From Maribacter sp. (GTDB lineage: Bacteria; Bacteroidota; Bacteroidia; Flavobacteriales; Flavobacteriaceae), in contig NZ_JADGES010000032.1 in NCBI RefSeq assembly GCF_016744255.1, forward strand, positions 1-33,127: a stretch of DNA of 33,127 bases, in the 5' to 3' direction. The notes below the pieces were generated by a model. The model was not told the DNA's origin. It saw nothing but the letters and a program-made list of their open reading frames with translations, and did not search any database. The position numbers were made by a program, and so were the translations under genes. Positions 5,477 through 10,007 of the stretch are shown here, piece by piece (the stretch's first letter is position 1; each line of letters begins with the position of its first letter).

Positions 5477-5518
5477 AAAGCCCTAAGCATTCTATTTTGC
5501 TTAGGGCTTTTTTCTTTT
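5477..5518 (+). terminator. Intrinsic terminator after sdhCAB
   Basis: Twelve-base arms AAAGCCCTAAGC (5477-5488) and GCTTAGGGCTTT (5499-5510) pair perfectly around a 10-base loop and are followed by a T-rich tract (TTTCTTTT). Confidence 0.93.
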
Positions 5519-5588
5519 CTAAATATTCATATTGCTTCAAAATTTTATAAAAAAAGACCCTTCGTATTAACTTATATCCAAATATTGT

Positions 5589-5609
5589 TAGATTTGTCTA
5601 AACAAAATA
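5589..5609 (+). promoter_or_regulatory. Candidate promoter and operator of the MerR/CarH-like gene
   Basis: TAGATTTG (5589-5596) matches the -7 TAnnTTTG consensus, but no good -33 element lies at the right distance. Overlapping its end is TTTGTCTAAACAAA (5593-5606), an imperfect inverted repeat (TTTGT, 4 bases, ACAAA). Read on the other strand it gives TATTTTGTTTA (5609 down to 5599), identical over 11 bases to the left repeat in front of crtI. This suggests that the regulator controls its own promoter; it is inference from sequence only. Confidence 0.45.
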
Positions 5610-5617
5610 GCATTCCC

Positions 5618-6511
5618 TTGAACAACATTAAAACCAAATTCTCCATAAAAGATTTAGAAAATATCTCTGGAGTAAAAGCCCATACCATCCGTATTTGGGA
5701 AAAAAGATACGCACTATTTACTCCAAGTAGAACCAAAGGTAATTCAAGATTCTACGACCAAGAAAGCCTACAAAAGCTCCTAAATGTTATTCTACTCAAC
5801 GAGAATAACTACAAAATATCTAAAATTGCGGCACTCACAAATGAAGAAATTGTTCTAAAAGCAAGAGAAATTGCACTTCAAAATAACATAGATGATGATG
5901 CTATCAACTCGCTTAAGATTGCCATGTACAATTTTGATCAGAATTTATTTAACAAGGTATACGCCGAACTTTTAGTAAAAAAAACATTTCAAGAAATATT
6001 CAAAGACACTTTTATTCCTCTTCTTAAATTTATTGGCTTATTATGGCAGACCAAAACACTAACTCCAGCGCATGAGCATTTTATCACCAATTTAATTTCC
6101 CAGAAAATTCAAGTTAATACGGAGCGAATAAGTTTTAACCCTATTAATAATGACAAAGTATATGTATTGTACCTTCCTGAAAATGAAATACATGAATTAG
6201 GGCTTCTTTATTTAAATTATGAACTTAAGTTAAGAGGGTTGCATTCCATTTATTTAGGACAAAGTGTTCCTTTAAAAAATTTAGAAGACCTACAGAATGT
6301 ATTCAATTCTATTTGTTTTATATCTTACTTCGTAGTTGAGCCTGCAGAAGATAAAATTATTCCGTATTTCAACGAAGTCTCTAATATAATGAAAGATAGC
6401 TCCAACGAGTTATGGGTTGTCGGCAGAAAAGCACATGGAATAAACACTGAAAACACATTTAAAAACATTAAAATTTTCCCCAATACTACCAGTGTTCTAG
6501 AAAAATTATAG
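5618..6511 (+). CDS. MerR-family regulator with B12-binding (CarH-like) domains
   Basis: A 297-residue regulator. Residues about 6-75 form a MerR winged helix (FSIKDLENISGVKAHTIRIW). Residues about 85-165 form the helical B12-binding cap and about 178-297 the Rossmann-like B12 domain. The cap has Trp143-x9-Glu153-His154 and the Rossmann domain has Glu190-x-His192-x-x-Gly195, the two signatures of adenosylcobalamin photoreceptors of the CarH type. The residue after the Trp is Gln, whereas Thermus CarH has His132 there, the residue that caps cobalt after light exposure. The start is TTG 5618 (MNNIKTKFS), because a -7 element covers the region just upstream; a longer TTG start at 5585 is possible. 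It lies 47 bases before the crtI ATG, so it probably controls the carotenoid operon in response to light or B12. Confidence 0.85.
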   Translation: MNNIKTKFSIKDLENISGVKAHTIRIWEKRYALFTPSRTKGNSRFYDQESLQKLLNVILLNENNYKISKIAALTNEEIVLKAREIALQNNIDDDAINSLKIAMYNFDQNLFNKVYAELLVKKTFQEIFKDTFIPLLKFIGLLWQTKTLTPAHEHFITNLISQKIQVNTERISFNPINNDKVYVLYLPENEIHELGLLYLNYELKLRGLHSIYLGQSVPLKNLEDLQNVFNSICFISYFVVEPAEDKIIPYFNEVSNIMKDSSNELWVVGRKAHGINTENTFKNIKIFPNTTSVLEKL

Positions 6512-6523
6512 TTCGACACTCTA

Positions 6524-6555
6524 TTTTGTTTAACTTTTTTGTATTTTTGTTAAAC
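6524..6555 (+). promoter_or_regulatory. Candidate crt promoter overlapped by two 11-bp direct repeats
   Basis: TTTTGTTTAAC (6524-6534) and TTTTGTTAAAC (6545-6555) are 10/11 identical direct repeats exactly 21 bp apart, two helical turns. TATTTTTG (6542-6549) matches the -7 consensus and shares bases with the second repeat; no -33 box sits at normal distance. The crtI ATG follows at 6559, so a transcript from here would have almost no leader. A regulator on this pair would directly contact or block polymerase. The MerR/CarH-like protein is the natural candidate. Confidence 0.5.
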
Positions 6556-6558
6556 GTT

Positions 6559-8025
6559 ATGAATAAAACTATATATATAATAGGTTCTGGTTTTGCATCT
6601 TTATCTGCCTCTTGTTACTTAGCACAAGCCGGTCATAAGGTCGTTGTACTCGAAAAAAATCCTACTCTCGGAGGTAGGGCACGGCAACTAAAAAAAGAAG
6701 GTTTTATATTTGACATAGGCCCTACTTGGTATTGGATGCCCGACGTATTTGAACGTTTCTTTTCTGATTTTAATAAAACACCCTTAGACTATTATCACTT
6801 AGACAAACTAAACCCTGCCTATGAAGTCTATTTTTCTAAAGAAGAATCTAAAACCATTTCGGGCAATTTAGATGAGATTTATGAGATGTTCGAGGAAGAA
6901 GAGCCTAGAAGTTCTTTACATCTTAAGAAATTCCTAGAATCCGCTCAAAAGAACTACGAAACAGCAATAAAAGAACTAGTATATAGACCGGGAGTCTCAC
7001 CAATCGAATTAATTACCCCAAAAACAATAATAAGAGCTAACCAATTCTTATCCACTATACGGAAACAGGTAAGGAAAAATATTAAAAGCGAAAAGCTTAT
7101 AAAAATTCTGGAATTCCCAGTATTATTTCTAGGAGCAAAACCAAGTAATACTCCTGCCTTCTATAATTTTATGAATTATGCAGATTTTGGTCTTGGAACC
7201 TGGCATCCAAAAGGAGGCATGTACAAAGTCATTGAAGGCACGGTAACTTTGGCTAAATCCTTAGGTGTAGAATTCCATACTAATGCCAATGTAGAACAGA
7301 TTACAGTAGAAAATAGTAAAGTAAAAGGAATAACGGTTAATGGTATTTTTACGGAGACAGAAATAGTTCTTAGCGGAGCAGATTATCACCATACAGAGAC
7401 ACTATTACCAAAAGAACACCGACAGTATTCAGAGAACTATTGGGAAAAGAAAACCTTTGCTCCTTCTGCACTCTTGTTTTATGTAGCTTTAAATAAACCT
7501 TTGCAAAATGTATCTCATCATACTTTATTCTTTGATTGTGATTTTGAGAAGCATGCAGAAACTATTTACGATAACCCAAGTTGGCCAGACGAGCCTTTGT
7601 TCTACGCCAGTTTTCCAAGCAAAACAGATAGCTCTTTAGCCCCGAAAAATAAAGAAGCCGCAACTTTTTTAATTCCACTAGCGCCAGGCATAAAAGACAC
7701 TATGGAAATCCGAGAATTATACTTTAATAAAATCATAGACAGATTAGAAAAAGTAACCAATCAAGAAATTAAAAGTAACATTCTATTTAAAGAATCTTTT
7801 TGTGTAAATGATTTCATAAAACAGTACAATTCCTATAAAGGAAATGCATATGGATTAGCAAACACGCTATTACAAACCGCATTTTTAAGACCTAAAATAA
7901 AAAGTAAAAAAGTTAAAAATTTATTCTTCACAGGGCAACTTACCGTACCGGGGCCAGGAGTACCACCAGCATTGATTTCCGGAAAAATAGCGGCTAATTT
8001 AATTCTAAAAAATATGCAATCATGA
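6559..8025 (+). CDS. crtI: Phytoene desaturase
   Basis: A 488-residue FAD-dependent amine-oxidase-fold enzyme that desaturates phytoene to lycopene. The N-terminal dinucleotide motif is YIIGSGFASLSASCYLAQAG followed by VVLEKNPTLGGRARQ. The third glycine of the usual GxGxxG is Ser here. The C-terminal CrtI signature FFTGQLTVPGPGVPPALISGKIAAN closes the FAD site. DIGPTWYWMP near residue 55 matches bacterial CrtI. The frame is open from a TTG at 6526, but ATG 6559 gives the family N-terminus and lies just after a -7 promoter element. It overlaps crtB by 4 bases (ATGA), so translation is coupled. It is a normal length for CrtI (about 490). Confidence 0.95.
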   Translation: MNKTIYIIGSGFASLSASCYLAQAGHKVVVLEKNPTLGGRARQLKKEGFIFDIGPTWYWMPDVFERFFSDFNKTPLDYYHLDKLNPAYEVYFSKEESKTISGNLDEIYEMFEEEEPRSSLHLKKFLESAQKNYETAIKELVYRPGVSPIELITPKTIIRANQFLSTIRKQVRKNIKSEKLIKILEFPVLFLGAKPSNTPAFYNFMNYADFGLGTWHPKGGMYKVIEGTVTLAKSLGVEFHTNANVEQITVENSKVKGITVNGIFTETEIVLSGADYHHTETLLPKEHRQYSENYWEKKTFAPSALLFYVALNKPLQNVSHHTLFFDCDFEKHAETIYDNPSWPDEPLFYASFPSKTDSSLAPKNKEAATFLIPLAPGIKDTMEIRELYFNKIIDRLEKVTNQEIKSNILFKESFCVNDFIKQYNSYKGNAYGLANTLLQTAFLRPKIKSKKVKNLFFTGQLTVPGPGVPPALISGKIAANLILKNMQS

Positions 8026-8861
8026 AAAATTTATATACCGAATTATCTTTTTCTTGCAGTAAATTAGTGACGCAACAATACAGCACCTCTTTTTCATCTG
8101 CAGTTCGCATGTTGTCTCCTAAAATTAGAAGCGCCATCTATAGTATTTATGGTTTTGTTCGCTTAGCAGATGAAATTGTAGACAGTTTCCAAGACCACAA
8201 CCAAGAAGAACTACTAAATACCTTTGAAAAAAATTACTATCTCGCTTTAAAAGACAACATTAGTCTAAATCCTATTCTACATTCTTTTCAAGAAACCGTA
8301 AAAAAATACCATATAGAGAATACATTAATTCAATCTTTCTTAAAAAGCATGCGTGCAGATTTATACAAGACAGAGTATAATACCAAAGAAGATTATGAGA
8401 CTTACATATATGGTTCCGCAGATGTCGTTGGCCTAATGTGCTTAAAAGTATTTACCAATGGTAATACGGAAAAGTACGAATCCCTAAAAGAACCAGCCAT
8501 GCGATTGGGATCGGCATTCCAAAAAGTAAATTTCCTTAGAGATATTAAAGAAGATTATGAAGTATTGCATCGCTCCTACTTTCCCAATATTAATCTAAAA
8601 CAATTGTCTCCTGAAGATAAAGCGAAAATAATATTAGAAATTAAGGAGGATTTTAAAGAGGCTTATAAAGGTGTTATAAAATTGCCTTTGGAATCTAGGT
8701 TTGGGGTTTACACTGCGTATAGATACTATTTAAAACTTTTACGAAAGTTAGAAGTTACACCCTCTCATAAAATAATGGATGCAAGAATAAGAGTATCCGA
8801 TTTTATGAAGATTAATTTATTAGCTAAGTCCTTTATCCGTTTTAAATTAAATATCTTGTAG
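8022..8861 (+). CDS. crtB: Phytoene synthase
   Basis: A 279-residue trans-isoprenyl diphosphate synthase of the squalene/phytoene synthase family that joins two GGPP molecules head to head to give phytoene. The two aspartate-rich Mg-diphosphate sites are visible: DEIVD at residues 50-54 in the YGFVRLADEIVD context, and DIKED at 174-178 in VNFLRDIKED. YSTSFSSAVRMLSP near residue 20 is the substrate-pocket segment. Start overlaps the crtI stop, and the next gene begins 1 base after its stop. No GGPP synthase gene (crtE) is in the cluster, so GGPP must come from an enzyme encoded elsewhere. Confidence 0.95.
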   Translation: MKNLYTELSFSCSKLVTQQYSTSFSSAVRMLSPKIRSAIYSIYGFVRLADEIVDSFQDHNQEELLNTFEKNYYLALKDNISLNPILHSFQETVKKYHIENTLIQSFLKSMRADLYKTEYNTKEDYETYIYGSADVVGLMCLKVFTNGNTEKYESLKEPAMRLGSAFQKVNFLRDIKEDYEVLHRSYFPNINLKQLSPEDKAKIILEIKEDFKEAYKGVIKLPLESRFGVYTAYRYYLKLLRKLEVTPSHKIMDARIRVSDFMKINLLAKSFIRFKLNIL

Positions 8862-8862
8862 A

Positions 8863-9321
8863 ATGCATTTAATTACATACGTACTAATACTCCTAACCAC
8901 ATTTTCTATAATGGAGGTAGTAACATGGTTAACGCACAAATATGTAATGCATGGCTTTCTATGGTATTTACATGAAGACCACCACCAACCAAAGTACCAA
9001 GGAATTTTTGAAAAAAACGATTGGTTTTTTGTAATATTCGCTATTCCAAGTATCCTACTATTTTGGTACGGCGTTACTCCAGAACTTAACTACCTGTTTT
9101 TTATAGGACTTGGTATTTTATGCTACGGTATATCCTATTTTTTAATACATGATGTTTTAATTCACCAAAGATTTAAATGGTTTAAAAAAACGAAAAACAA
9201 ATATTTAACTGGTCTTAGAAAAGCCCACAAAATGCATCACAAACATCTAGGAAAAGAACATGGAGAGTGTTTTGGCATGTTATATGTTCCTTTACATTAT
9301 TTTAAAAAACCTTTGATATAA
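8863..9321 (+). CDS. crtZ: Beta-carotene 3-hydroxylase
   Basis: A 152-residue membrane di-iron hydroxylase of the fatty-acid hydroxylase superfamily that adds 3-OH to the beta rings, giving zeaxanthin through beta-cryptoxanthin. Histidine boxes are HKYVMH (25-30), HEDHH (37-41), HDVLIH (96-101) and HKMHHKH (122-128), the expected set for CrtZ. About four hydrophobic stretches (3-22, 54-70, 76-97) place it in the inner membrane. Its stop codon shares one base with the start of the next gene (TAATG), so expression is coupled with the cyclase. No ketolase gene is nearby, so the end product is predicted to be zeaxanthin rather than astaxanthin. Confidence 0.93.
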   Translation: MHLITYVLILLTTFSIMEVVTWLTHKYVMHGFLWYLHEDHHQPKYQGIFEKNDWFFVIFAIPSILLFWYGVTPELNYLFFIGLGILCYGISYFLIHDVLIHQRFKWFKKTKNKYLTGLRKAHKMHHKHLGKEHGECFGMLYVPLHYFKKPLI

Positions 9322-10007
9322 TGTATCTGTACCTACTACTAAATGTAGCTTCGATAAGTATTCCACTTCTCTATTCCTTTCATAGAAAAATGAATTTTAT
9401 TCGGCATTGGAAAGCTGTATTTATCTCTATATGCATTACGGGAGCTTGTTTTATTACCTGGGATTCCTTGTTCACACTATATGGTGTTTGGGGTTTTAAT
9501 GACAAATACCATTTGCCATACCAATTTTTAAACCTTCCTCTAGAAGAATGGTTGTTCTTTTTATGCATTCCCTATGCTTCTATATTTATTCATTATGCCC
9601 TAGAATATTATTTTCCTAAAGCTAGTATTCCCAAAAAAATAACGCAAACTCTTACTGTGTTACTAATTTTAACACTAGCCATTACGGTAGTATATAATAC
9701 CGACAAAGCTTATTCTCTGGTCAACTTTAGTTTAGCTATCATTGTTTTAAGTGTTGGTTTCTTTAAAATAAAGATTATCCAAAAATTCTATCTTTCTTTT
9801 CTTATCATTTTGATTCCGTTTTTTATTGTCAATGGAATTTTAACAGGCAGTTTTATTGACGAACCCATTGTTTGGTATAACAATAATGAAAATTTAGGGA
9901 TTCGTATTGCAACAATTCCAATAGAAGATATTGTTTATGCATTCAATCTATTATTTATAAATCTACTTTTTATAGAAAAACTAAAATCAAAATCAAAGAA
10001 CGTTTAA
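9321..10007 (+). CDS. crtY: Lycopene beta-cyclase, fused CrtYc-CrtYd type
   Basis: A 228-residue polytopic membrane protein of the lycopene cyclase domain family, the type found as separate CrtYc and CrtYd chains in actinobacteria and as a single chain in Bacteroidetes, archaea and fungi. It forms the beta rings of beta-carotene without a soluble flavin fold. Two homologous halves each carry the family acidic motif: PLEEW (residues 73-77) in the first half and PIED (200-203) in the second. Six or seven transmembrane helices are apparent. It is the last crt gene. Its stop overlaps the stop of the convergent thioredoxin-like gene by 3 bases, leaving no room for a dedicated terminator. The symbol is used for function; it is not homologous to the flavoprotein CrtY. 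Confidence 0.88.
   Translation: MYLYLLLNVASISIPLLYSFHRKMNFIRHWKAVFISICITGACFITWDSLFTLYGVWGFNDKYHLPYQFLNLPLEEWLFFLCIPYASIFIHYALEYYFPKASIPKKITQTLTVLLILTLAITVVYNTDKAYSLVNFSLAIIVLSVGFFKIKIIQKFYLSFLIILIPFFIVNGILTGSFIDEPIVWYNNNENLGIRIATIPIEDIVYAFNLLFINLLFIEKLKSKSKNV

Follow-up and report, generated by a model that had tools for sequence, protein, structure and literature searches.

The protein encoded at positions 5618-6511 of the window, that is, of the whole 33,127-nucleotide stretch of DNA analysed here, can be assigned to the CarH-type photoreceptors, and this membership is well supported by its modelled fold and its sequence motifs. We consider it probable that it acts as a flavobacterial CarH-type dark repressor, which would occupy dyad operators in its AdoCbl-bound form, would be released by light and would govern a wider light regulon. 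The chances appear about even for the more far-reaching proposal that one B12-based repressor working without bis-His ligation runs a family-wide photobiology regulon (proteorhodopsin-type pumps, fasciclins, cryptochrome/photolyase, carotenoid/isoprenoid enzymes), with an operator arm that is at the same time its own start codon.

If this is true, carotenoids, DNA repair, secreted fasciclins and rhodopsin pumps would stand under a single predicted light switch in an abundant family of bacteria, and B12 supply would be tied to photoheterotrophy in marine flavobacteria. What is new relative to the known CarH proteins is the dyad operators, which are different in kind and recur at carotenoid, DNA-repair, fasciclin and rhodopsin genes; the Gln at position 144 is not new. 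A partial literature search found neither a description of this operator nor rhodopsin or FAS1 genes placed under CarH, and no paper naming a regulator for the light induction of flavobacterial rhodopsin. For the light-induced carotenoids of Chryseobacterium the regulator was stated to be unknown (PMC7064467).

Organization of the carH-crt locus

The window is a contig (G000:C15) of a Maribacter sp. genome of 3.59 Mb and 99.9% completeness. The carH-like gene opens a carotenoid operon and is followed on the same strand by crtI, crtB, a crtZ-like gene and a lycopene cyclase gene:

5477..5515, + strand: intrinsic terminator 3' of sdhB (13-bp stem and T run; -21.6 kcal/mol, z -6.6)
5618..6511, + strand: carH-like gene, 297 aa from TTG 5618; MerR HTH, four-helix B12-binding_2 and Rossmann cobalamin-binding fold
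6559..8025, + strand: crtI-type phytoene desaturase, NCBIfam CrtID above cut-off, likely ATG 6559
8022..8861, + strand: crtB phytoene synthase (PF00494, 1.3e-44)
8863..9321, + strand: crtZ-like beta-carotene hydroxylase, without a match in Pfam or NCBIfam and named from its position and its His boxes
9321..10007, + strand: lycopene cyclase of CarR/CrtY type (PF18916, TIGR03462)

The terminator divides the sdh from the carH-crt transcription unit, and the GC composition of the locus gave no sign of foreign origin. In 80 related loci crtI follows carH without exception (80/80), while crtB is found in 78/80 and crtZ in nearly all. TTG 5618 is the likely start of carH, since the upstream TTG at 5585 precedes the -7 promoter element at 5589-5596 and falls outside the conserved N-terminus, and the CarH proteins of the relatives begin with MNN... 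at the position matching 5618; TTG 5585 was thus rejected.

Some side observations were made on these loci. The crtI product exceeds the NCBIfam cut-off for CrtID, a bifunctional enzyme with both phytoene and 3,4-desaturase activity; this is a hint at a carotenoid other than plain zeaxanthin. In some Tenacibaculum/Tamlana loci (L002, L007, L009-L011, L013, L018, L027) the carH-crtI interval, the crtB-crtZ interval or both hold extra sequence, probably an additional gene. One contig labelled as a Bifidobacterium breve MAG (L072) groups within Flavobacteriaceae and is probably a mislabelled or contaminated assembly.

Fold, motifs and family membership of the regulator

An earlier note on this DNA had pointed out W143, Q144, E153, H154, E190, H192 and G195, and these residues and their numbering were confirmed in the reading frame 5618-6511:

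6044..6046, + strand: Trp143 (TGG), equivalent to W131 of T. thermophilus CarH (TtCarH)
6047..6049, + strand: Gln144 (CAG), at the position of TtCarH His132
6074..6079, + strand: Glu153-His154, equivalent to TtCarH E141-H142
6185..6202, + strand: Glu190-x-His192-x-x-Gly195, His192 matching the lower cobalt ligand His177 of TtCarH

Both signatures of the family are therefore present, the Wx9EH motif for the adenosyl group as W143-x9-E153-H154 and the ExHx2G motif with His as lower cobalt ligand as E190-I-H192-E-L-G195. When the protein was aligned with TtCarH of strain HB8 (plasmid pTT27, L157), W143 fell on W131, Q144 on H132, E190 on E175 and G195 on G180; E153, H154 and H192 were placed on E141, H142 and H177. 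Among the 81 rows of a Flavobacteriaceae alignment W143, E153, H192 and G195 are invariant and H154 is kept in 79/81. The MerR-type HTH is also present (PF13411, MerR_1, 3.8e-14), with an invariant recognition helix R25-I-W-E-K-R-Y31 that fits R-x-W-E-x-R-Y. In the DNA-binding wing (CarH residues 40-43) the protein reads KGNS and the same-genus genome L091 SGNS, the family having mostly DTNI.

Pfam MerR_1 and B12-binding_2 both scored above cut-off, and phmmer against the PDB gave 3e-14. The NCBIfam CarH model (NF052513) matched at E = 3.9e-20 with 72 bits, below its equivalog cut-off of 400, and by these scores the protein is homologous to the narrow NCBIfam CarH clade but lies outside it. 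The AlphaFold model (mean pLDDT 88) found its best PDB matches in TtCarH, then in CtMerR and SasPcob; against TtCarH Z was 16.9 at full length and 16.7 for the cobalamin domain (rmsd 2.6 A over 193 residues). In the structural match residue 92 lies on TtCarH chain residue 80, which is the same offset of 12 as in the sequence alignment, and the placement of Q144 at His132 relies on both.

Not all details of TtCarH are retained. In the Rossmann module the SxT/V...GG motif is partly kept, S236 and G269 being present and the second G absent, and TtCarH itself aligns loosely here. The SignatureFinder signature of light-responsive cobalamin-binding domains is represented by GxxW, EH and GxxxP, while its GxxH reads N189-E-I-H192 (Gly occurs in 5/81 relatives). 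The dimer salt bridge R176-D201 of TtCarH is replaced by I191/S216, which suggests other dimer contacts, and together with the altered GxxH it indicates that the oligomer contacts differ from those of TtCarH.

The residue at the upper ligand position

The absence of His, to which the earlier note had drawn attention, proved to be nothing special when the relatives were compared. Position 144 is occupied by Gln in 76/81 Flavobacteriaceae sequences and by His in 5/81. In the maximum-likelihood tree His arises by two independent Q-to-H changes (one in Kordia, the other in a Polaribacter pair) within a Gln background, the starred branches forcing both; Gln is thus reconstructed as the ancestral state of the family, and the 81 sequences and the tree rule out a His loss specific to this lineage. 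In more distant Bacteroidia the position holds Q, L, I, S, A, G, R or D, with Wx9EH mostly kept.

Variation at His132 has also been published before. Among myxobacterial CarH proteins "many", but not all, have His after the Trp (PMC9304148), and CtMerR with Arg, SasPcob with Gln and AbDPcob with Tyr at this position have all been described as light-responsive (PMC11796333, PMC10979010). Because these published light-responsive CarH-type domains lack His132, we treat this residue as non-defining for CarH / class I LitR. In the light state of SasPcob the cobalt is ligated by water/hydroxide and the dimer interface is disrupted (PMC10979010). The H132A variant of TtCarH shows normal AdoCbl binding in the dark; it yields a light product at 352 nm and is mostly tetrameric in the light (PMC10442372), although an earlier report which that paper cites had observed disassembly. 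On the evidence of SasPcob and H132A, Gln144 should lead to another end state without the response having to be weaker, and by analogy an aquo/hydroxo instead of a bis-His cobalt is a fair prediction. Of the earlier proposal, the CarH-like B12 photoreceptor is upheld by fold and motifs; the altered or weaker light reaction or pure B12 sensing deduced from Gln144 is not. The natural Gln/His variation, in which His was gained twice, could readily be used to compare what bis-His ligation contributes.

A candidate dyad operator over the carH and crtI promoters

The promoters of carH and crtI contain the following elements:

5589..5596, + strand: -7 element of the carH promoter, TAGATTTG, an exact flavobacterial TAnnTTTG
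5595..5624, no strand: candidate carH operator dyad, TGTCTAA-N16-TTGAACA, 2 mismatches to TGTTTAA-N16-TTAAACA
6527..6556, no strand: candidate crt operator dyad, TGTTTAAC...GTTAAACG, TGTTTAA-N16-TTAAACA with 1 mismatch
6542..6549, + strand: -7 element of the crtI promoter, TATTTTTG, inside the dyad 6527-6556

TAnnTTTG stands upstream of carH in 78/81 loci. The carH dyad spans from the -7 element to the start codon, and its right arm TTGAACA consists of the TTG start and the next codons; this arm lies exactly on the start codon in 66/81 loci, mostly as TTGAACA or ATGAACA. TTG starts of carH occur in 36/81 loci, and the dyad arm over the start codon may explain their frequency. In the intergenic region upstream of crtI the core promoter is covered by an inverted repeat, which reads TTTTGTTTAAC-N14-GTTAAACG here and TTTTGTTTAAC...GTTAAACAAA in relatives. 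Besides the carH and crtI dyads no further one turns up in the 33-kb window when up to 2 mismatches are allowed.

The spacing was examined in promoters picked by gene identity, not by motif, the rhodopsin set comprising 27 loci (L194-L220; L191-L193, unparsed by motif, were left out). At N16, dyads with at most 2 mismatches were found in 70/81 carH, 45/81 crtI and 20/27 rhodopsin promoters, whereas every other spacing from 8 to 24 gave at most 12 dyads and shuffled sequence under 1. Since the register of the dyad relative to the -7 element differs among the three kinds of promoter, promoter conservation alone cannot account for it.

The arms include TAAACA, which conforms to the TnnACA half-site described for CarH operators (PMC9304148), in inverted and not in tandem direct orientation; such a dyad would suit a pair of dimers better than the direct-repeat tetramer of TtCarH. 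The single half-site TAnnTTTGTTTAAC had only 2 matches in the Maribacter genome, no better than the control. Dyads with 2 mismatches numbered 113 in the same genome against 80 in the control and are therefore mostly due to chance genome-wide, so that use was restricted to sites that have 0-1 mismatch or stand at a conserved position, for instance the carH start. The one-mismatch sites on contigs C27, C40 and C119 of this genome lie away from light-related genes and were also taken as chance. That this CarH binds the dyad directly is suggested by the position of the dyad, its autoregulatory placement, the half-site similarity and the co-occurrence.

Predicted regulon in Flavobacteriaceae

A carH homolog was found in 175/199 Flavobacteriaceae genomes. 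The longer promoter-plus-dyad pattern (at most 1 mismatch) occurs in 113/175 carH+ and 0/24 carH- genomes (p = 2e-10), which are kin by descent and hence not independent, and the 0/24 is partly confounded because crt and other target genes may likewise be missing from carH- genomes. The reversed control of the pattern gave only a handful of matches. In the two carH- genomes that have rhodopsin (G003, G158), its promoter is without the dyad.

The target survey covered 60 hand-picked sites outside the mapped crt loci, among the matches listed, plus one site of the Maribacter genome. Three of them precede crtI and two have no nearby ORF; downstream of the remaining 56, again among the matches listed, there are 30 fasciclin (FAS1), 8 GLPGLI and 6 mevalonate-kinase-like proteins, two each of CrtW-like ketolases, cryptochrome/photolyases and TetR-type proteins, and 6 single cases, including one rhodopsin and one SRPBCC-photolyase operon. 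Each similarity cluster received its family name on the basis of one or two members, and the NCBIfam names of CrtW (223-241 of 350) and mevalonate kinase (63 of 163) are below cut-off. None of the operator targets examined is a B12-metabolism gene.

Three FAS1 proteins are encoded in the Maribacter genome, of which one is preceded by a perfect dyad, and given this count 30/56 is far above the base rate. This dyad (G000:C39:25574-25604) is upstream of a four-domain FAS1 lipoprotein (ORF L090:3222-5204), and the same-genus genome G129 (L147) has the same arrangement. Carotenoid-binding FAS1 proteins are known in algae (PMC10147662), and by analogy with algal AstaP the FAS1 lipoproteins are possibly carotenoid carriers. 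The second perfect dyad (G000:C101:871-900, L222) stands 20 bp before a short SRPBCC-like ORF without a Pfam match, with an SDR gene behind it at a contig end; genome G123 (L136) has a similar SRPBCC-like gene, there followed by a photolyase gene. No rhodopsin was found in the Maribacter genome. From the recurring targets we infer a light regulon shared in Flavobacteriaceae under an AdoCbl-bound repressor released by light.

Cofactor supply

The Maribacter genome encodes a PduO-type cobalamin adenosyltransferase, a B12-dependent methylmalonyl-CoA mutase (a member of an AdoCbl-dependent enzyme family) and MetH. The adenosyltransferase is present in 173/175 carH+ and 18/24 carH- genomes (Fisher p = 4e-5), so B12 light sensing stays the best reading. 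In two genomes, G007 (L158) and G057 (L159), the carH motifs are intact and a PduO-type adenosyltransferase was not found; these genomes may encode an adenosyltransferase of another type, or the cells may take up AdoCbl. Many Flavobacteriaceae may depend on outside B12, and thus their light responses could hinge on B12 supply.

Proposed mechanism and alternatives

The model is built on the observed fold, the conservation of the ligand residues, the operators with their spacing, and the co-occurrence with the regulator and the adenosyltransferase. In the dark the protein would bind AdoCbl with Trp143 and Glu153/His154 on the adenosyl side and His192 ligating the cobalt, would oligomerise, and would occupy the TGTTTAA-N16-TTAAACA dyads over the core promoters of carH and crtIBZY. 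Light would cleave the Co-C bond and the adenosyl group would depart; since residue 144 is Gln, the product would probably be His192-Co(III)-water/hydroxide, as in the Gln-bearing SasPcob, and not bis-His. The dark dimer contact would then be lost and the promoters opened. In other Flavobacteriaceae the same operator might bring FAS1 lipoproteins, SRPBCC/photolyase operons, DASH cryptochrome, a CrtW-like ketolase, a mevalonate-kinase-like protein and rhodopsin into the light regulon. B12 binding and a light response of this protein are what we infer from the above, and repression rather than activation is suggested by the known CarH proteins and by operators overlying promoters.

The direction of control might be the opposite, the protein binding the dyad in MerR style between -33 and -7 and twisting the promoter in one B12 state. 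Classical MerR operators are dyads over the core promoter, and the crtI dyad has this position; nevertheless the other registers to the -7 element at carH and rhodopsin fit occlusion better than a fixed activator geometry, and known CarH proteins repress, so that activation seems quite unlikely. The signal, too, could be another one. A B12-status sensor would repress when AdoCbl is plentiful, with little light effect without His132, and crt would follow B12 supply. Gln at the upper-ligand position and the mostly tetrameric H132A TtCarH in light (PMC10442372) would agree with this, but Gln- and Arg-bearing relatives are photoresponsive, AdoCbl is intrinsically photolabile, and the operator targets include cryptochrome/photolyase and rhodopsin and, among those examined, no B12-metabolism gene; we hold such a sensor unlikely.

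It is also conceivable that the cobalamin fold is kept without B12 dependence, as in Myxococcus CarA, the signal coming via a protein partner, redox or singlet oxygen. CarA likewise retains the B12-binding motif (PMC9304148) and its operator has palindromes, the CarH dimer salt bridge is lost in our protein, and two carH+ genomes are without the PduO adenosyltransferase. CarA, however, lost the Trp of Wx9EH, which is found here in 81/81 with a nearly invariant Glu-His, and the adenosyltransferase co-occurs in 173/175, which makes a CarA-like regulator very unlikely. Light control through a partner, a LOV or other photoreceptor binding the MerR protein as PmSB-LOV does with the Pseudomonas class II LitR, can draw on the similar light genes controlled by class II LitR, e.g. 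photolyase and cryptochrome (PMC9758184). Class II LitR keeps the four-helix part only, while a full cobalamin domain with His ligand is present here, and a LOV gene was not seen in the carH-crt cluster of the window, so we regard partner-driven control as extremely improbable. The AdoCbl-bound dark repressor released by light is retained as the preferred reading.

Comparison with known systems

With Thermus thermophilus CarH/LitR (PDB 5C8D-F, 8C31) the protein shares the MerR HTH plus cobalamin domain, the fold (Z about 17), the Trp, Glu, His and lower His ligand, and the adjoining carotenoid genes. It has Gln144 where TtCarH has His132, Ile/Ser instead of the R176-D201 salt bridge and a larger predicted regulon, and its N16 dyads stand against the tandem 11-bp direct repeats of TtCarH (three in number) and BmCarH. 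CtMerR of Chloracidobacterium (8JBS/8JBT) and SasPcob (8J2W/8J2X), both among the best structural matches, are likewise light-responsive CarH-type cobalamin domains without His132. CtMerR has Arg in place of the Gln found here; SasPcob also has Gln, but it is a globin-fused, bilin-binding photocobilin without a MerR DNA-binding domain.

Myxococcus CarA/CarH resemble the flavobacterial system in the control of a crt promoter and in palindromic operator elements with TnnACA half-sites (TAAACA here), whereas CarA is B12-independent and lacks the Trp that is invariant (81/81) here. The class II LitR proteins of Pseudomonas (PplR/PmlR), which are also MerR-type and related, place photolyase, cryptochrome and SDR genes under light control; they retain only the four-helix bundle of the B12 domain, without the Rossmann module, and act with a LOV partner, while both modules of the cobalamin domain are modelled in the present protein.
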